Of a stretch of DNA of 46,308 bases, positions 27,302-45,493 are shown piece by piece; within the stretch, counting starts at the first letter, position 1; every line of letters starts with the position of its first letter. The notes under the pieces are model-generated. The model was not told the DNA's origin. It made no database searches and worked only from the letters and a program-made list of their open reading frames with translations. The DNA comes from Actinoallomurus soli (GTDB lineage Bacteria; Actinomycetota; Actinomycetes; Streptosporangiales; Streptosporangiaceae). The stretch is from assembly GCF_024055715.1 (NCBI RefSeq), contig NZ_JAMXMV010000038.1, positions 1-46,308 on the forward strand. Reading direction: 5' to 3'. The translations under genes were made by a program, and so were the position numbers.

Positions 27302-28353
27302 GAACGGAACCTCCCAGGCGATATGAGGATGAGAGTCGTTCCTCCGCTGCCTGGTTCGGAACCATAGAGAGAGGAGGGTGACAGCGTTCAGCGAACGCCT
27401 CGTACCCAAATTATTCCGCACAGTGACAACGGCAAGATTGGCTGAGCGGAGAGTGTTTTCTGGCGGCCGGAATAGCGCATTGTTCATCACTCGCCAGGAC
27501 ATCACCGCCATTCCGGCAGAATCGGCGACACCATGCCGTGTCGGCGCTCCTACTCGTCCATTTCTCGTCTGTTTCGAGGCCACGGCAACGCACAAAGCTG
27601 GGCAGCAAGCCCCAGACGGTCCGCCGGATCCCGCCCGCGGCCCGTGCGACGGCCATCCGGTCGGACACCCCGTACAGGTGCGGTGAGGACCCGGGCAGAG
27701 GACCTTCAGGGGGCTGCCGGAGCGCCGTGATCATGATGGTCCTGCGCGCCGGCAAGCGCTGGTCGGCGTGAGCACTGCTCGATTAGGTCGGCTGACGGTT
27801 TCCCGGCAGAACCACAAATGGCATCGGGCGCGGGCGCTCAGAGGTGGATGCGATGCATAGCCATCCAAGCCCAACGACCGGCTTGGGTGCTCCGTGGGTG
27901 CTCGTATGTCGCGGTACCACCCGGCAGCACCCGGTACGCCGTCGCGATGATACAGGTGGAACGAATCGCGAACGCGGACCAAGTGGCACGTAGTAAAACT
28001 GTGGAATAGGACGCGGTAGCGCGTCGAGTAGGGGCTTCTTGTGGAGCTGTGGAATTTTAATCCGCAGCTTCGGAGCCACAGGCAGCAGGCCGGCCTCAAT
28101 TCGGGCATTTCGGAAGCCGCAGGTCACGGCCCGGTTGGCCGTGGGCCGAAGGATTGTGCATGATGCGCTTCATGTGCGACGTCGGACTCATCCGGACACG
28201 CATTTATCGTTGCAGGAGGCGGGAGTTCCAGACGTCGACCGGCTCGCCATTCGCCTACGAAGTGCCAGGCAACCATCCTTCTGTACCGGTCGGTCTGTCA
28301 ATCGGCGACCGAGGAGACGACCGACAGCATCGCCGCGTATCGGTCCGGCGAGC
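27302..28353. other. about 1 kb without a recognisable gene; contains a short dispersed repeat
   Basis: No frame here shows both a plausible start and a recognisable product. The DNA around 27400-27560 and 27850-28060 is more AT-rich than its surroundings. At 28101-28130 lies a 30-bp sequence (TCGGGCATTTCGGAAG...) matching 44681-44710 at 27 of 30 positions. This suggests both places share mobile-element or island-flank DNA. Confidence 0.4.
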
Positions 28354-28806
28354 TCATTGACGCCGTACGCCCAGTCTCCGGAACCTGGTCACCAGGCCGG
28401 GCCGCGTCTTTCCGGAGGACCGTTCAGGCTGCTCACGCCACTCGGGCTCCTCGGGTCGGTCTCCGCGCAGGTGCCGGTCGAGCCGTGCGCGGTCGCGCTG
28501 CCGGTTGTCAGCGATCTCGCGGTCTGTGTAGCGGCGGCTCCACCGAACCCTGCCGTCACGGACCCAGTAGTGCGACTGGCAGGGCAGTCCCCAGTTGCCG
28601 ACCGAGGGATCGAGGGATACGTTCTCGCCGTCGTAGATCAGCGTCCACCGCGCCGGCGACAGTGAGGTGAAGACCTCCTCTCCGCAGCCGCAGCAGCATA
28701 GATGCCCGCACGTGGAGTAGGGGATCGAGACGTACAGCACGCCGGGCTCCATCTCCGGCGGGACGTGGTCGACGAATTCGGGGCGGAGCGCGGCGATGAG
28801 GGTCAT
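28354..28806 (-). CDS. DUF6527-like Cys-rich protein of the ubiquitin-like operon
   Basis: A 150-aa protein starting at ATG 28806, overlapping the E1 stop by four bases (ATGA). Cys33, Cys37-39 and Cys41 in YSTCGHLCCCGCGEEVF and the CQSH pair Cys76/His79 form a likely zinc site. VSLDPSVGNWGLPCQSHYWV and DGRVRW match what I know of DUF6527 proteins, which occur beside Multiubiquitin and ThiF genes. The C-terminal 60 residues are Arg-rich and helical. Its role in those operons is not settled to my knowledge; a ligase-like or target-binding part is a guess. No JAB peptidase motif is seen. Confidence 0.7.
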   Translation of the reverse strand: MTLIAALRPEFVDHVPPEMEPGVLYVSIPYSTCGHLCCCGCGEEVFTSLSPARWTLIYDGENVSLDPSVGNWGLPCQSHYWVRDGRVRWSRRYTDREIADNRQRDRARLDRHLRGDRPEEPEWREQPERSSGKTRPGLVTRFRRLGVRRQ

Positions 28807-29972
28807 ATCCGGTCCTCGTTGGCGATCTCGTTGGTAATCAGCGAGTAGGTGCTGAAGGTCTCGCGTGTGACGTCGGCGTAGACGCCGAGGTGACGTTTCC
28901 ACCGGCCGATCGCCAGGACAGCGTTGAGAGCGTTCAGGTCGGCGACCTGAATGTTTCGGCCGTAGTCGTCGTGCTCGGGGGCCGATGCGGGGATCCGCCG
29001 CCGGACCTGTTCGCGGTGCCCCGGCAGGCTTGTGGAGGTCCGCAGCAGCCCCGTTAGGTGCCCGTCGACTTCCTCGATGCCCATACCAACGTCGACGAAC
29101 GGCACGTCGCGGGCCTCCAGCCAGTCCATGACGGCGGGCTTGCCGGCCGCGTTGTCGGAGCATAGGAACACGAAGCTCGCCCCCTCCAGAACATCGAGGT
29201 TGTCCTCATCGAGGAATTCCTCGCACGCGGTGATGCCCCGGTGCATGTTGGAGTAGATCGTCTTGAAGTAGGCGGCCTTGTTGGGGCGTGCCCGCAGCGT
29301 CTCCAGGTCAGGGGCACCAGGGGCCCTGAAGGCGTTGTGGTTGTCGAAGTGGTCGCCGTCGATGAGCAGAATGGTGTCGACCTCGGTCTTGGCGACCTGG
29401 TCCAGGATGTAACCGCCGGTCCCGCCCAGCCCGACGATCGCGATACGGTGCCCGCGGTAGCGGCGGTTGACGGCTGCGAGCCCGGCCCGTGAGGTGGCGG
29501 TGTCACGGTAGGCGAACACCGAGTCGTCCCCGACCTCGTGCCAGGCGGCGCCCGGAGTGGCCGTGACGGCGGGGTCTAGCGCCTGAGCCGGGTGGGAGAT
29601 CATCCGCACGTATGCGGTCACCTTGGAGTACTCATCGGGGTAGCCGTCCGGCGCCGGCTTGCTGGAGAGCATGAAGGATGCCCGCAGCCCGTCGGTGATG
29701 TCCCGAATCTCGTCGTTGACCATCCTGAGCCGCCGGCCCTGCTCGTCGCACGGCGCCGACCCGACCCACCAGATGCGGTGGTCGGTTCCGGACACGATGC
29801 GGTCGCCGCTGATGGTCACCGGATAGGCCAGAACTCCGTACTCGACGGTGCCGGTCTGTGTGCGGTAGGGGATGCGCTGGATGAGCAGGTGCCCCGCCTG
29901 CACGACGACGTCATACCCGTCGTCGAGCAGGCGGGACAGGTCCTGATCACGAGCGAGAGGTGCGCTCGACAT
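28803..29972 (-). CDS. E1-like ThiF adenylyltransferase with Cys-containing N-terminal domain
   Basis: A 389-aa protein. The C-terminal half is an E1/ThiF adenylation domain: nucleotide loop GLGGTGG at 181-187, LLIDGDHFDNHNAFRAPG with Asp205 and Arg216, Lys232, and LCSDN with Asp273. No Cys follows Cys271, so the usual E1 thioester Cys is absent. The N-terminal 170 residues form a separate domain (LLIQRIPYRTQTGTVEYG; HRIWWVGSAPCDEQG) with a single Cys75. It resembles the N-terminal domain seen in prokaryotic E1 fusions (DUF6791-like) and could be an E2-like or acceptor module; that is inference. It starts 26 bases inside the Ubl gene and overlaps the DUF6527 gene, so the three are co-translated. 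Confidence 0.85.
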   Translation of the reverse strand: MSSAPLARDQDLSRLLDDGYDVVVQAGHLLIQRIPYRTQTGTVEYGVLAYPVTISGDRIVSGTDHRIWWVGSAPCDEQGRRLRMVNDEIRDITDGLRASFMLSSKPAPDGYPDEYSKVTAYVRMISHPAQALDPAVTATPGAAWHEVGDDSVFAYRDTATSRAGLAAVNRRYRGHRIAIVGLGGTGGYILDQVAKTEVDTILLIDGDHFDNHNAFRAPGAPDLETLRARPNKAAYFKTIYSNMHRGITACEEFLDEDNLDVLEGASFVFLCSDNAAGKPAVMDWLEARDVPFVDVGMGIEEVDGHLTGLLRTSTSLPGHREQVRRRIPASAPEHDDYGRNIQVADLNALNAVLAIGRWKRHLGVYADVTRETFSTYSLITNEIANEDRI

Positions 29973-30207
29973 CGAAGACCATGCCCTCCTTCACGTGCAC
30001 GCTGTGGCCCGCCGTGAGGCTGCCAGCACCGTGGCCCTCGGGGCCGCGGGTGTAGCGGACGGTGAAGGTGTCCTGCTCTGTCGGCGGCCGGTCCGGGAAG
30101 GCGAGCACGACGAGCTGCTCGAAGGAGATGTCCTTGTCCTCCCACTGGTACGGCCGGCTGTTGATGATGATCGTGACGGGCTTGTGCCCGTGGTCGTCCT
30201 GTGCCAT
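29947..30207 (-). CDS. small ubiquitin-like protein (single Multiubiquitin-type domain)
   Basis: An 86-aa protein, ATG 30207 with AGGA upstream. VTIIINSRPYQWEDKDISFE, QLVVLAFPDR, FTVRYTRGPEG and the ending EGMVFDVERTSRS fit the beta-grasp pattern of the Multiubiquitin family (strand-strand-helix-strand, then 'V..GM.F.V..T'). Only one domain is present. There is no C-terminal diglycine, so if conjugated it uses another terminus or is trimmed first. It is the first gene of a three-gene operon, followed by an E1-like enzyme that would adenylate its C-terminus. Confidence 0.75.
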   Translation of the reverse strand: MAQDDHGHKPVTIIINSRPYQWEDKDISFEQLVVLAFPDRPPTEQDTFTVRYTRGPEGHGAGSLTAGHSVHVKEGMVFDVERTSRS

Positions 30208-30262
30208 CAGATCATTCCTACGGCGCGTATAGAGGCCAGCCGAATCCGCGCCGAGTATCGAC

Positions 30263-30286
30263 CAGTGCTCGAAATTTCGAGCACTG
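30263..30286. promoter_or_regulatory. perfect 24-bp palindrome between the Ubl operon and the Xre gene
   Basis: CAGTGCTCGAAA followed directly by its reverse complement (30263-30286), in the 137-bp divergent intergenic region, 56 bp from the Ubl start and 59 bp from the Xre start. A second small repeat TGCTA-CCG-TAGCA follows at 30285. This is the expected site for the neighbouring Xre protein controlling both directions. Confidence 0.75.
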
Positions 30287-30344
30287 CTACCGTAGCAGAG
30301 GTGAGCGACACTTTGAGCGGTGCGAGAAGTCAGGAACGCGGGTA

Positions 30345-30722
30345 ATGAGCGAGAACCTGAGCGTGAACGTCAAGGCGCTGCACGCCGCCCTGGACGCGGC
30401 GCGCACCGAGAAGGGCCTCTCGTGGCGGCAGCTGGCTAAGGAGATCGGCGTGAGCGCCTCGACGATCTCGCGGATGGCCAATAACCTCAAGCCCGACGTC
30501 ACGGCCTTCGCCGCGATGACGACGTGGCTGCGGATGCCGGCCGAGACCTTCTATGTGACCTCGGAGCCGGCCAGCGACGAGGAGCCCGAGCTGGTGGCCT
30601 CCTTGGTCCCGCACCTGCGGGCACGCCGTGACCTCACCGAGCAGGATGTGGACTATCTCGAAGAGGTCATCGCCGCGGCCGCCCGCCGATTCCGCGCCGA
30701 AAGCGGCGGCCGGAGCCGGTGA
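30345..30722 (+). CDS. Xre-family HTH repressor
   Basis: A 125-aa protein from ATG 30345 (CGGGTA just upstream is weak; GAACGCGGG lies further back). The helix-turn-helix at residues about 22-60, LSWRQLAKEIGVSASTISRM, is textbook Xre/Cro. The C-terminal half is acidic and helical (DLTEQDVDYLEEVIAAAARR). The next gene is an ImmA/IrrE metalloprotease, one base away. In such pairs, as in ICEBs1 ImmR/ImmA, the protease cleaves the repressor on a signal. Divergent from the Ubl operon across a perfect palindrome, so it is probably its repressor. Confidence 0.92.
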   Translation: MSENLSVNVKALHAALDAARTEKGLSWRQLAKEIGVSASTISRMANNLKPDVTAFAAMTTWLRMPAETFYVTSEPASDEEPELVASLVPHLRARRDLTEQDVDYLEEVIAAAARRFRAESGGRSR

Positions 30723-30723
30723 C

Positions 30724-31314
30724 GTGGCCTGGACACAAGCACTCATGCGCGAGGTCGCGCAGGAGGAGCGGGCCGAACTCGGCCTGAGTGCGACCGACCG
30801 GTTCGATCCTTATGCCCTAGCCGAGGCCCACGGCATCAAGGTCTACACGCTGAGCGATCTGCGCCAGTACGACCTCGGCGTTCAGGCGCTCCACCACTTC
30901 ACCGAGCAGGACTCCTCCGCCTGGTCTGCCGCGCTCGTCCCGTTCGGGACCGCGCGGATCATCATCGAGAACGAGACGCACGCCCCGGCCCGCCGCCGCT
31001 CGAACATCGCCCATGAACTCGGCCACCACCTCCTTGAGCACCCCTTCGACGGCGTGATTTTCGGTGAGAACCACAAGCGGCAGTTCAACGACAAGCAGGA
31101 GAAGCAGGCGACCTTCATGGCCGGCGAGCTCCTGATCCCGCTCGCCGCCGCAGCGCGCATGGCTTACGCCGGCTGGGACAACCAGCGCGTCGCCGACGCC
31201 TACGGCGTGAGCCCCCAGTTCGCCCAGATGCAGATGAAGGGACAACGCGTGCGAGCCCAGCGAGCCGCCCGCAAGTACGGCTTCTCCAGCCCCGTCATCC
31301 GCCAGCAACGCTGA
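30724..31314 (+). CDS. ImmA/IrrE-type metallopeptidase
   Basis: A 196-aa protein starting at GTG 30724, directly after the Xre stop. The zinc motif HELGHH (residues 97-102) lies in ARRRSNIAHELGHHLLEHP, with EKQATFMAGELLIP supplying the third ligand Glu. Downstream WDNQRVADAYGVSPQFAQMQ is the usual helical C-terminus. The family cleaves Xre partners or other regulators. Here it would relieve repression of the ubiquitin-like operon. No membrane or sensor domain is attached, so the trigger cannot be read. Confidence 0.93.
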   Translation: MAWTQALMREVAQEERAELGLSATDRFDPYALAEAHGIKVYTLSDLRQYDLGVQALHHFTEQDSSAWSAALVPFGTARIIIENETHAPARRRSNIAHELGHHLLEHPFDGVIFGENHKRQFNDKQEKQATFMAGELLIPLAAAARMAYAGWDNQRVADAYGVSPQFAQMQMKGQRVRAQRAARKYGFSSPVIRQQR

Positions 31315-31846: not shown

Positions 31847-31948
31847 AAAACAGACACTGGGCGCTCCCGGTGGAACCGAGAACGCCCAGGTCAGGACGGG
31901 TGCGCCGCCAGGGACTTGAACCCCGAACCCGCGGATTAAGAGTCCGCT
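31847..31948 (-). repeat. left copy of a 102-bp direct repeat containing the 3' half of tRNA-Lys (att-like)
   Basis: Matches 45183-45284 with a single mismatch. Positions 31902-31948 on the minus strand are the 3' half of a tRNA-Lys(CTT). They contain the anticodon arm with CTCTTAA, the T arm with GTTCAAGTC and the acceptor strand GGCGGCGC. A 5' half that could pair with them is not found next to it, so it is a remnant and not a working tRNA. Integrative elements of actinomycetes commonly recombine at tRNA 3' ends. Confidence 0.8.
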
Positions 31949-32398
31949 GCTCTCGTGCCAGATCGACGCTCTCACTGCCAGACTATGCCGGTCCGTCCGC
32001 GACTCCGCCGGTTCCGGTGCCGGGTAATGTCGCCGACTGATGCGCTGTCTCATGGCATCCGAGCACACAGCGAGCACATGCACGGATGACATTGGTGGTG
32101 GGCGAACCGTGATTGGTGCGCGAGGGGGCATTCCTTGCAGGGTGCCCAGGGTGTGCGAGTACCCTCCGGCTGCCTTCTGATCATTGAGGATCGCGTATCT
32201 CTGCCAGGCTCTCCGCAGGAGAGATCGCCGTGGCCGAGGCTTCAGCGCCGAGCAGGCGATTCGGTAGACGGTGATCGTTAGCGTCGTCGTACTCGTTGCC
32301 GTCGCGGCGGCAGTGTTGTACATGCAAACGTACCTGCTGGTACGGCGATATGGCGTTCACCGCAGGGCTACTCCCTGCGTCCCCGACTTCTGGAACGC
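31949..32398. other. stretch without a recognisable gene
   Basis: Contains only a short possible membrane peptide frame from 32271 (IVSVVVLVAVAAAVLY) that runs into the CRISPR-like DNA. I do not regard it as a supported gene. Confidence 0.35.
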
Positions 32399-32755: not shown

Positions 32756-35700
32756 TCAGGGGGCGGTCCAGGATTGGGCGTTGGTCTGGTTGCAGCCGTA
32801 GATCTGTAGTTGGGTGCCGTTGGTGGTGCTGGCTCCGGGGTCGTCGAGGCATCGGTTGGAGTTGGGGTTCCACAGTTGTCCGTTGGAGTCCAGGTGCCAG
32901 TCTTCGCCGGGGCTGCCGTTGCAGTCGTAGAGCTGGATGAGGGTGTGGTCGGTGGTTCCGTCGCCGGTGACGTCCATGCATTTGGTGACGCCGTTGATGG
33001 TCACGCTGATGGCGTTTCCGGGCCCGTCGGGGGTGATGGTCCAGTTCTGATTTGGATTGTTTGTGCAGCTGTAAATCTCGATTTTGTTGCCGTTGTTGGT
33101 TCGGCTCTGGGAGTCGTCGATGCACAGGCTGCTGGAGTGGCCGGAGATGATGGGGCCGGTGATGGGGACGGGGTTCCACCAGGCGTCGAGTTCGGCGGTG
33201 GTGACGTAGTAGCTGTAGTAGGCGACGTGGCTGATCTGGCCTTTGAAGTAGCTGGCGCGGTTCGTGCTGGTGACACCGGGGGCGTTGATCCAGGTTTTGG
33301 TGCTGGTGTTGTGGGAGAAAACGCCGGCGCCGATGAAGTTGAGGGGGTCTGCGTTGTTGACGGGGTCGTGGCCGGCCATGCCGATGCGGGGGTAGTTGTC
33401 GAGGTAGAGGCCTTGGTGGTAGGCGCCGCCGCCGGCGTCGTAGGCGTTGAGGGTGGCGGTGTGCCATTGGCCGTCGTTGACCGGTTGTGGGGAGATCATC
33501 GGGGTGACGGCGCCGTTCCAGAATTGGGCGTACAGGCGTCCGTCGGTGCCGATGTACATGACGGGCATTGCCGCCGGGTTGGCCTTGTCGGGGGTGTCGT
33601 TGCCGGTGGAGAACAGGATTCCGTTGCTGCCGGGGTCGGCGCGGAAGGACAGGGTGAGAGTGAGCGTGTTGGAGGAGTGGATCATGTTCGCGGGAGCGGT
33701 GAGGTAGCCGGTCCCATCGAAATCGGCGACGGTGCCGTAGGTGGAGTCGGGGGGGAAGGTGACCCCGCCGGTCGCCGGGATGTCGGCGCCACCGCGGGTG
33801 TCGGGGGTGCAGACGGTCGCGGTGCAGCTGCTGGTCGGTCCGCTGCTGGTGGTGAGCGGCCATTCGTGGTCCGGGGCGATCAGGCTGACCGTGGTGCCCT
33901 TAGACAGGGTGGTGCCGGACAGGGTGTAGGGGGTGGCGTTGGTGCCGGACTGGGCCCACAGTTCGATGTTGCCGGTGGTGGTGACGTCGCCGGAGACCAG
34001 GGTCGGCGGGGTGGTCCAGGGGACGGTGATCTTGGTCCAGGTTCCACCTTGGGAGGTGGCGGTGCCGATCGGGGTGGCGGCGTTCTGGCTGGGGTTGGTG
34101 GCCTCCCACAGTTCGCCGGTGGTCTTCTTCAGCGCGAACAACACGGCGGTGCCGCCGGGCTGGGCGGTGGCCAGGGAGAAGTTGTTCCAGTCGCTGGCGC
34201 CGTCGGGGGAGTCTGAGGGGCCGGCGAGGGTCTGGTAGTAGCCGTAGCCGGTCGCGTCACAGCCGCCGCAGGTGGTGTACAGGTCGAGTTGGTAGCCGTT
34301 GGTGGCATCGCCGGTGATGCCGATCAGGTCGGCGATGCCGGTGCCGGTGAGGCTGGCGTTCCCGGCGGCGACCAGGTCGATGGGGTTGTCACCGTCGCCG
34401 TTCAGGGAGTAGTCGGCGAACTGGCCGGAAGGCAGGTTCTGCTGGCTGTCGGAGACGGGGGCGAGGGGGAGGGTGTCGCCGTTGCCGTACAGGATGCTGC
34501 TGGTTCCGGTGTGGGTGCCGGTGGGGTAGTAGGCGATGACGTCTTGGACGTGGTTGCCGGTGAAGTCGCCGTGCAGGACCTGGGCGCCGGTCCAGTCGGC
34601 GGGCGTGCCGGCAGTGTCGACCCCGGTTCCTGCGGCGCCGATATCGGTGGGGACGTTCAGGTTCCCGGCGCCGTCGCCGGTGGCCAGCCACAGGCCGGGG
34701 TTGCTTCCGGTGCCGGAGGCCAGCAGGTCGGGATGGGTATCGCCGTCGATGTCGCCGTCGGTGTAGGGAGCGGCCGGTCCGGTGACGGTGAAGTCGGTGG
34801 AGGCGGAGTCTCCGGGGTTGCCGCCGGAGGAGATCGAAAAGACGGTCAGGGTGTTGGGCCCGGCGTGGGTGAGGGGAACCTGGACGGTCTGGGCGCTACC
34901 GGTGGCGGTCACGCTCAGCGGCGGGCTGGAGTTGATCTGGTAGGTGTAGCGGTTCGGTGGCGTGCCGGTGCAGGTTCCCGGAGGGTCGGCCAGCGCGTCC
35001 GCGCAGGGGGCGAGGGTGAAGGTGCCGCTTTGGCCGAGTGCGCCGGCGTTGCCGTCGCTGTCGGTGGTGACGGCGACGCCGGGGGCGGCGGGCTGGGTGG
35101 GGTCGTAGGTGAAGGTACAGGGGCTGCCGGAGGAACCGGTGCCGGTGGTGGGGCTGTACAGCTTGCCGTCGCTGGATCGGGTGTACCAGGAGTAGGCGTA
35201 GGCATTGGTGGCCCCGTCCGAATGCCAGCCTTGGATCACGGTGCGTTTGATGGTGAGACTGACCACCTTGCCGGAGGTCGAGGTCAGCGCGGTCGAGGCC
35301 GTCTTGGCGTCGCCGGAGTCATAAACGGTGGAGCCGCCGTAGTTCTTGACGACGAACTGGGTGCCGAGCTGGCCGCCGTCGGGGTCGGAGGCGACGGTCT
35401 GGAAGGTGACGTCGTCGTTGCCGATGATGGTCGCGGACGGCGCGCCGGTCTGGCACGGCCCGCCGGGCGAGGCCGCCGGGTGGGTGGGCAGCGTGGGCGC
35501 GCGGTCGTAGGTGGTCGACATCGTCAGCGTCGAGGCGTGGAACTGTTTCCAGGCGTCCTTGTCCGACTCGGAGGCGGCAGCGATGCCGAAGGTCAGGCTG
35601 GAGGCGCCTTGGGCGTGGGACTGCATGAAGGAGGTGATGGGGAAGCCGACGTTCTGGCCCGAGCAGGCGGGCGGGTACTGGGTGTTGATCTTCTGCTTCC

Positions 35701-37033
35701 AGGACGGGGCGTTGTTCCAGGTGGTGGAGGAGGAGATGCCTCCGGTCCACCACAGTTCCAGGCCGGGGGTGGGTGCGCTGGAGCAGGAGGAGTACGGACC
35801 GTAGGCGACGGTCAGGTCGAGTTCGGAGGAGTAGATCTGCGCGCCCTGCAGCTGGGACGGGACACTCATCCGGACGTAGGACTCGGCGGTGAAGGTGGGG
35901 TAGCAGGTGTCCCAGCCGCAGTATCCGTTCTGCAGTTCACTGGGTTTCCAGTGCGCGGCGGATTTGTTGATGGTGTCGGTCTGGGCCCACGCCTGACGAG
36001 AGGATCCGGCGTTCTGGCTCACCCAGGTTGGGTCGATGTAGACCGGGAACACGGTGGATGCGCCGGTGAGCAGTCCGGAGTCGGGCCGCAGGTTGATCGA
36101 ACCGCTGTGTGCCGTGCTCGGATTCGCCGTATGCGGGGTGGCGGCCTGCTGAGCGGTGGTCTTGATCGGTGCCACGTGCGCACCCTGCCCCGGTCCGGTG
36201 ACGGTCGATGCCGCGGGTGCCTGCGCACCGGATCGGCCGGCGGTGGTCGCCGAGTCCCACATCATCGGGGCGATGGCGGTGAAGATCGGCTCGCCGTCGC
36301 CGGCCGCGGTGGCTTTCAGGTCACCTGCGGCATTGGCGGTGACCGTCAGGTCATTGCTCGCCGTGGCCATCGTTAAGCCGGCGAGCCGGGGATTGGCGGC
36401 GGCGGCCGGAGTCTTGACGACGAGAGTGTCGTTGAATCCGCCCTGAGGGGAGACGGTGACCACGAGATCGACCCCGTCGAGGACCGACGGGTAGGTCGCG
36501 GTTGCGCCCGAGATGGTCGGGGTGGGCAGCGGCGTGGGCCAGGACAGCGACAGCGTGTGGCCGGTTGCGGTCATGGTCGCCAGCGGCCCGGTGCCTCCGC
36601 CGGACAGGACCAGGCCGCTGGTGGTCACGTTCGGGGACACGGTGTGGTCGGCATTGACGTGCAGGGTCGCGTCCAGGTTCTTCCATGTCCCGTCACGCCA
36701 GGCCCGGACCGGCTCGGCGGTTTGCGTCAGGGTGAAGGTGCCCGCGGAGTCGGCGACCGTGGTGGACGTCGGCGTGGTCAGCGATGTGACCGGGACACTC
36801 TGCCCGGTGGCTTCGGCCCGCCGGAGCGCTTGGGTGGATTCGCGCGCTACCTTCGCCGACCCGGTCAGCGGCGGCGATCCGGTCGTCTTTGTATGGTCCT
36901 GGCGGGAGACGGCCGCAACGGCCGTGCTGCCGGAGAAACCGACCGCGCACGCGGTGAAGACGGCGACCAGCGAACTCAGCGTGCCGCAGTGACGCAGGAT
37001 CGGTCTGCGGTGACGGGTCGATGCATTTGCCAC
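32756..37033 (-). CDS. giant secreted multidomain protein (FG-GAP-like, LamG, CBM13)
   Basis: A 1425-aa protein from GTG 37033, behind GGAAGGGG. Signal peptide in residues 1-41. Residues about 50-500 are beta-rich, with GWDTCYPTFTAESYVRM and QIYSSELDLTVAYG resembling the DNRLRE-type module of actinomycete wall-associated proteins. FN3-like stretches follow. Residues about 780-1000 carry FG-GAP/VCBS-like repeats (DGDIDGDTHPDLLASG). About 1070-1260 is a LamG jellyroll (GTVADFDGTGYLTAPAN; GQWHTATLNAYDAGGG). About 1285-1425 is a ricin-type CBM13 with three QxW-like units (NQNWTI, EDWHL, AQSWTAP). No catalytic domain is evident. Divergent from the Rhs gene, so the two are probably expressed together and may act at the cell surface. 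Confidence 0.88.
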   Translation of the reverse strand: MANASTRHRRPILRHCGTLSSLVAVFTACAVGFSGSTAVAAVSRQDHTKTTGSPPLTGSAKVARESTQALRRAEATGQSVPVTSLTTPTSTTVADSAGTFTLTQTAEPVRAWRDGTWKNLDATLHVNADHTVSPNVTTSGLVLSGGGTGPLATMTATGHTLSLSWPTPLPTPTISGATATYPSVLDGVDLVVTVSPQGGFNDTLVVKTPAAAANPRLAGLTMATASNDLTVTANAAGDLKATAAGDGEPIFTAIAPMMWDSATTAGRSGAQAPAASTVTGPGQGAHVAPIKTTAQQAATPHTANPSTAHSGSINLRPDSGLLTGASTVFPVYIDPTWVSQNAGSSRQAWAQTDTINKSAAHWKPSELQNGYCGWDTCYPTFTAESYVRMSVPSQLQGAQIYSSELDLTVAYGPYSSCSSAPTPGLELWWTGGISSSTTWNNAPSWKQKINTQYPPACSGQNVGFPITSFMQSHAQGASSLTFGIAAASESDKDAWKQFHASTLTMSTTYDRAPTLPTHPAASPGGPCQTGAPSATIIGNDDVTFQTVASDPDGGQLGTQFVVKNYGGSTVYDSGDAKTASTALTSTSGKVVSLTIKRTVIQGWHSDGATNAYAYSWYTRSSDGKLYSPTTGTGSSGSPCTFTYDPTQPAAPGVAVTTDSDGNAGALGQSGTFTLAPCADALADPPGTCTGTPPNRYTYQINSSPPLSVTATGSAQTVQVPLTHAGPNTLTVFSISSGGNPGDSASTDFTVTGPAAPYTDGDIDGDTHPDLLASGTGSNPGLWLATGDGAGNLNVPTDIGAAGTGVDTAGTPADWTGAQVLHGDFTGNHVQDVIAYYPTGTHTGTSSILYGNGDTLPLAPVSDSQQNLPSGQFADYSLNGDGDNPIDLVAAGNASLTGTGIADLIGITGDATNGYQLDLYTTCGGCDATGYGYYQTLAGPSDSPDGASDWNNFSLATAQPGGTAVLFALKKTTGELWEATNPSQNAATPIGTATSQGGTWTKITVPWTTPPTLVSGDVTTTGNIELWAQSGTNATPYTLSGTTLSKGTTVSLIAPDHEWPLTTSSGPTSSCTATVCTPDTRGGADIPATGGVTFPPDSTYGTVADFDGTGYLTAPANMIHSSNTLTLTLSFRADPGSNGILFSTGNDTPDKANPAAMPVMYIGTDGRLYAQFWNGAVTPMISPQPVNDGQWHTATLNAYDAGGGAYHQGLYLDNYPRIGMAGHDPVNNADPLNFIGAGVFSHNTSTKTWINAPGVTSTNRASYFKGQISHVAYYSYYVTTAELDAWWNPVPITGPIISGHSSSLCIDDSQSRTNNGNKIEIYSCTNNPNQNWTITPDGPGNAISVTINGVTKCMDVTGDGTTDHTLIQLYDCNGSPGEDWHLDSNGQLWNPNSNRCLDDPGASTTNGTQLQIYGCNQTNAQSWTAP

Positions 37034-45182: not shown

Positions 45183-45284
45183 AAAACAGACACTGGGCGC
45201 TCCCGGTGGAACCGAGAACGCCGAGGTCAGGACGGGTGCGCCGCCAGGGACTTGAACCCCGAACCCGCGGATTAAGAGTCCGCT
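45183..45284 (-). repeat. right copy of the 102-bp direct repeat with tRNA-Lys 3' half (att-like)
   Basis: Same sequence as 31847-31948 except one base. tRNA-like part at 45238-45284 on the minus strand. The next bases to the right (AGCCCGGCGTGAC) differ from those after the left copy and do not supply a tRNA 5' half. The pair brackets about 13.3 kb that holds the CRISPR remnant, LamG and Rhs genes. Confidence 0.8.
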
Positions 45285-45493
45285 AGCCCGGCGTGACAGC
45301 TTGAGGCGCGAGTGTGCTTATCAGCCGGTTGCTCACCTTGCCCAAGGGCGTGCCTACGCGTCAGGTGGCGGGCCCAACCCTGTGCCTGAGCGCGTGCCTA
45401 AGATCGTTTGTGCCTTGCCCGAGGTCTGCCGAAGGCGTGCCTAAGAAGTGCCTAAGGGGCCGGGTTGGCTTGGTTGGGTGCCGTTCGGGACAG

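Follow-up and report, generated by a model that had tools for sequence, protein, structure and literature searches.

A 46,308-nucleotide (nt) stretch of Actinoallomurus soli DNA (the window, one of the 60 contigs that make up a 9.42-Mb genome) carries, at positions 28354-31314, three genes for a ubiquitin-like protein (Ubl), an E1-like enzyme and a cysteine-rich DUF6527 protein, divergent from genes for a predicted Xre repressor and an ImmA/IrrE protease. The gene set was already outlined in 2006; the part that stands out is its chemistry, namely a Ubl that ends in serine and an E1 that has no invariant cysteine. We see about an even chance that the locus is an inducible (stress or phage) DUF6791-type system, named for the N-terminal domain of its E1, which activates and transfers the serine-tailed Ubl with a non-canonical last step.

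The serine-tailed Ubl and its E1

The Ubl gene (29947..30207, minus strand) encodes 86 amino acids with one copy of the Pfam Multi_ubiq domain (PF14452, 1.7e-15), and its product matches 9cd2, a solved multi-ubiquitin protein, at 1.6e-5. Both matches are consistent with the beta-grasp Ubl of the original prediction. The protein ends in FDVERTSRS, followed by the stop codon. A total of 48 loci were compared, 36 from a scan of genome contigs and 12 annotated plasmids picked among 60 listed of 118 plasmid matches. A Ubl tail stands beside the E1 in 44 of the 48, and these 44, hereafter the relatives, span six phyla (Actinomycetota, Planctomycetota, Pseudomonadota, Cyanobacteriota, Bacteroidota and Bacillota). 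All 44 Ubls close with T-x-x-S-stop, and serine is the last residue in each of 34 aligned Ubl rows, the window's own included; it is terminal in none of 10 related JAB/E2-type operons. The terminal glycine of ubiquitin-type conjugation is thus missing from the window Ubl and from those of all 44 relatives. Translation alone would yield the finished end of the Ubl, in keeping with the lack of a processing protease.

The E1 start codon lies within the Ubl tail, giving an overlap of 26 nt (29947..29972, minus strand). The overlap has exactly this length in 42 of the 44 relatives; the exceptions are L037, where the E1 match starts at residue 9, and L051, where the annotated start is further upstream. 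One further sequence, P0116 (375 amino acids), has the Ubl at its front and then DUF6791-ThiF, resembling an in-frame deletion that fuses both genes.

The E1-like enzyme (28803..29972, minus strand; 389 amino acids) consists of DUF6791 (residues 10-158, 6.1e-45) and a ThiF adenylation domain (residues 171-310, 6.5e-13), and scores 401.3 bits against NCBIfam NF004805 (cut-off 352). Adenylation-type residues are conserved in the ThiF domain, and His65, Ser103, Lys105, Lys117 and Tyr121 are invariant in DUF6791. Alignments of 20 diverse and of 58 close E1s contain no invariant cysteine. A CxxC motif was found in none of 19 E1 relatives, a JAMM motif in none of the cassette E1s, and a rhodanese domain was not detected in the window E1 by Pfam scan. 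In a Foldseek search with the ThiF domain, BubCD occupies ranks 1-4, PaaA rank 5 and MccB rank 7; ThiF and MoeB are also among the best structural matches of the E1. DUF6791 has no credible sequence relative in the PDB, and we therefore do not equate it with the N-domain of BubCD.

The third gene (28354..28806, minus strand) overlaps that of the E1 by 4 nt (ATGA) and encodes a cysteine-rich protein of 150 amino acids (DUF6527, PF20137, 4.1e-24). Its motif C-x3-C-x34-C-x2-H, in which the Cys and His residues are invariant in 37 aligned rows, suggests that the protein is probably metal-binding. The coordinates of the original prediction, its three overlapping genes on the Ubl side and all four of its proposed domains (Multiubiquitin, ThiF, DUF6791 and DUF6527) were thus confirmed. 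A Pfam scan of the locus genes likewise agrees with its statement that the operon has no E2 or JAB gene: neither of the separate E2 and JAB genes of the Bil type is among the five genes scanned, and no E2/RWD-like gene is among the operon's three. PF14461 and PF14462 found no match in the window's own genome, where the search controls were equally silent. Being minimal, as the operon was described, is not peculiar to this locus.

The cassette is sporadic and often plasmid-borne. Of 72,556 plasmid records, 118 match the E1 query; in 109 cases the match covers 80% or more of the query, and the weakest of the 118 are other ThiF proteins. The closest relatives of the E1 are actinobacterial, and in a sample of 396 genomes from the phylum DUF6791 occurs in three, this genome among them. 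Downstream of the E1, every genome locus but L016 and L040 (34 of 36) has a DUF6527 match, and the plasmid regions carry a gene annotated as DUF6527 except in L042, where the gene is unnamed (11 of 12). Public plasmid records already label the genes as multiubiquitin, ThiF family and DUF6527.

Probable control by the divergent Xre/ImmA pair

On the plus strand lie the gene for the predicted Xre/helix-turn-helix (HTH) repressor (30345..30722, 125 amino acids; HTH_3, 1.5e-8) and, adjacent to it with no overlap, that for the ImmA/IrrE (M78) metalloprotease (30724..31314, with start GTG 30724 or ATG 30745; Peptidase_M78, PF06114, 6.7e-19), which carries the motif HELGH. Both the divergent pair and its HExxH protease had been called correctly, as had the perfect 24-base-pair (bp) palindrome between the two gene groups (30263..30286, CAGTGCTCGAAATTTCGAGCACTG), the predicted Xre operator. 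A second, operator-like site at 30302..30319, 36 bp from the first, is degenerate, with 5 mismatches to the core pattern as judged by eye.

The genome (9.42 Mb) holds a single exact copy of the 18-bp core pattern, which argues that the palindrome is not due to chance; two further places match at one mismatch, and a reversed control pattern yields one genome match with one mismatch allowed. Close Xre and ImmA orthologues are divergent from the Ubl gene in 12 relatives (L042 being one of them). The operator core, TGCTCGAnnTnTCGAGCA, lies upstream in all 12 at no more than one mismatch, and a second copy with 1-4 mismatches follows at a spacing of 36-42 bp in all 12. Among the 32 relatives that do not have the pair, none has the core at up to 3 mismatches and six have it at 4. 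Given that the operator is linked to the pair and that its core is unique in the genome, the pair is most likely a local controller of the cassette. The original proposal, that a divergent Xre/ImmA pair makes the cassette inducible, is supported as likely, and multiubiquitin operons of the E2/JAB type in Synechocystis and Nostoc show the linkage as well.

The Xre protein matches only itself in its own genome. The window pair matches the PADLOC models capP (8.1e-12) and capH (1.5e-4) weakly, the corresponding values for the Pacificitalea pair being 8.9e-66 and 1.8e-31; CapH and CapP matches are strong in Pacificitalea and weaker in L026 and L033. Cysteine is absent from 9 of the 12 ImmA orthologues, and a switch of the cysteine-based kind that we take CapP to have is therefore unlikely.

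Other relatives use other controllers. In 36 of the 44, the 3.5 kb upstream contain an HExxH ImmA-type gene; in 2 more, such a gene lies elsewhere in the flanks. The upstream controller of L013 is an HTH-ImmA fusion, and WYL or CopG genes serve as controllers in some others. The Streptomyces and Nocardioides copies have, upstream of the Ubl gene and co-directional with it, an ImmA gene with a Cys-rich C-terminal tail (L008:6184-7206, L020:6638-7654 and L028, all on the plus strand), which in our reading is zinc-ribbon or RING-like. The protease part of this protein also matches in L009-L012, L015-L017, L021, L023 and L041, and a DUF3892 gene lies between the ImmA-type and Ubl genes in L008 and L041. 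In Sphingomonas, relatives of the window pair are also divergent to a DUF2188-TIR pair. Small DUF2188 or DUF1883 proteins were seen between or beside HTH and ImmA pairs and Ubl, TIR or other genes in L045, L064, L057 and L058.

Relation to known operons

The locus fits the polyUbl operon row 6e, in its "domain X" form, of Iyer et al. (2006, PMC1779556). In the parts of that paper available to us, the fifth operon type is described as having 1-3 Ubl repeats, a Cys-rich protein and an E1 that is mostly JAB-fused but in a subset is joined to a domain not yet characterised; an inactive E2/RWD-like domain, fused or separate, belongs to part of the polyUbl group and is not universal, and the table lists a solo Ubl plus domain X in Frankia. 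From its position and its missing JAB motif, we infer that DUF6791 is this domain X. The locus shares with row 6e the 1-3 Ubl domains (here one), the E1 with an N-domain in place of JAB, the Cys-rich protein, and a sporadic, partly plasmid-borne spread; it differs in having no E2/RWD protein among its operon genes, and its metal motif reads C-x3-C-x34-C-x2-H, where the polyUbl account prints C-x3-C-x35-38-H-x2-C. We found no mention of a terminal serine or a Cys-less E1 in those parts of the polyUbl account.

The JAB/E2-type operons of Synechocystis pSYSX (L053) and Nostoc pC052_E (L056) also have Multi_ubiq, ThiF and DUF6527, together with divergent HTH and ImmA genes (the ImmA proteins being 33.5% and 34.9% identical to the window's). 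However, their E1s contain JAMM and CxxC motifs, a separate E2/UBC protein is present and the Ubl ends in TTTEG; Pfam assigns Prok-JAB to the Synechocystis E1, unlike that of the window. In another multiubiquitin operon, that of Celeribacter, an IS256 transposase gene (L066:2676-3947) separates the E2 and E1 genes.

Among solved structures, BubCD comes closest to the ThiF domain of the E1. As in the CapH/CapP control of CBASS and other immune operons, an HTH protein and an HExxH ImmA-type protease are encoded beside the operon. According to the available part of a recent report, CapW or CapH+CapP stands beside 219 of 544 Bub operons, a count of Bub operons generally in which the DUF6791 share is not visible (EMBO J 2026, PMC13373217). 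Taken with the ImmA-type genes upstream of 36 of the 44 relatives, this means that control of the protease-relieved sort has precedents. Hence the novelty originally claimed for the combination is not supported: these two sources, as far as seen, already contain the gene set and the type of control.

Proposed mechanism and alternatives

In the resting state, Xre would bind the palindrome and repress both divergent transcripts, as the conservation of the operator suggests. By analogy with CapH/CapP, a signal, perhaps single-stranded DNA from damage or infection, may activate the ImmA protease, which would then cleave Xre and release the Ubl-E1-DUF6527 operon. The ThiF domain is predicted from its conserved residues to adenylate the C-terminal serine carboxylate of the Ubl. 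Because there is no E2, JAB or conserved cysteine, the activated Ubl would probably pass to its target from the adenylate itself or by way of a DUF6791 intermediate that does not involve cysteine, and the metal-type DUF6527 protein may help to choose that target. The claim of a protein-modification system therefore survives as a Ubl-activation cassette, while "conjugation" becomes more doubtful with no terminal Gly, conserved Cys or E2. More tentatively still, and in our view rather doubtfully, the DUF6791 type as a whole could represent widespread tagging that dispenses with a Gly end, a catalytic Cys and an E2, in which the E1 activates a C-terminal Ser, DUF6791 hands it over by a non-thioester route and a repressor/protease switch governs expression. 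Conjugation by the cassette, if true, would mean that the Gly tail and thioester relay are dispensable for protein tagging, and would offer a very small test system of two or three proteins. Even otherwise, the comparison hints at which of two sister operon types can be expected to carry out conventional conjugation, and the conserved operator is a ready reporter for the inducing signal.

Several observations weigh against an inducible, Ubl-transferring system with a presumed role in defence. A serine in place of glycine, combined with a Cys-less E1, is unlike any conjugation system known to us. Since the E1 start overlaps the Ubl tail, the conservation of the tail may partly reflect a shared coding constraint, and the Ubl matches of L032 are split over two frames, so that this copy may be broken. 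Within the window, the second operator-like site is degenerate, a search for a sigma-70-like promoter found none, the capH and capP models match only weakly, and among PADLOC models Xre scores best against RmrA (1.6e-9). None of 50,697 phage records matches the E1, and the scanned neighbours (aldehyde dehydrogenase, GDSL lipase and a ricin-lectin protein) are not defence genes. Moreover, Bub operons are reported, in the part of PMC13373217 available, as not shown to be protective against phage.

The E1 might instead modify the Ubl's own C-terminus, for example with adenosine monophosphate or a capped Ser, in the manner of MccB or PaaA, making the modified Ubl the effector with no conjugation at all. 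The missing E2, the lack of an invariant E1 cysteine and the fixed non-Gly tail all suit this explanation, as does the place of the peptide-modifying PaaA and MccB next after BubCD in Foldseek; we nonetheless consider it unlikely. Somewhat less probable again is a Ubl that acts mainly by self-assembly, with the E1 capping or loading the assembly rather than tagging targets: a solved multi-ubiquitin relative (9cd2) exists, but the window Ubl is single-domain and the E1 retains its adenylation-type residues. That ThiF and MoeB rank among the best structural matches would be expected of a ThiS/MoaD-like thiocarboxylate sulfur carrier serving a biosynthetic step, yet the Ubl has no terminal Gly, rhodanese and CxxC are missing as described above, and across the 12 plasmid regions no metabolic gene was noticed as a repeated neighbour of the cassette, which makes such a role very unlikely. 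Finally, we judge it highly improbable that Xre/ImmA has nothing to do with the cassette beside it or forms a toxin-antitoxin module of its own. ImmA relatives do occur with no Ubl operon in the 10 kb covered (e.g., L054, L055 and L058), but pair and operator go together in 12 cassettes and the operator is absent from the 32 others, and some ImmA-type gene is upstream in most cassettes.

Beyond the cassette, the ricin B lectin domain lies at the end of a 1425-amino-acid protein (32756-37033, minus strand). Two tRNA-Lys(CTT) genes are predicted on the minus strand, at 31899-31969, about 585 bp past the end of immA, and at 45235-45309. A 30-nt inverted repeat, 80% complementary and possibly due to chance, joins 28044-28073, beyond the DUF6527 gene, with 31923-31952 in the first tRNA-Lys gene.
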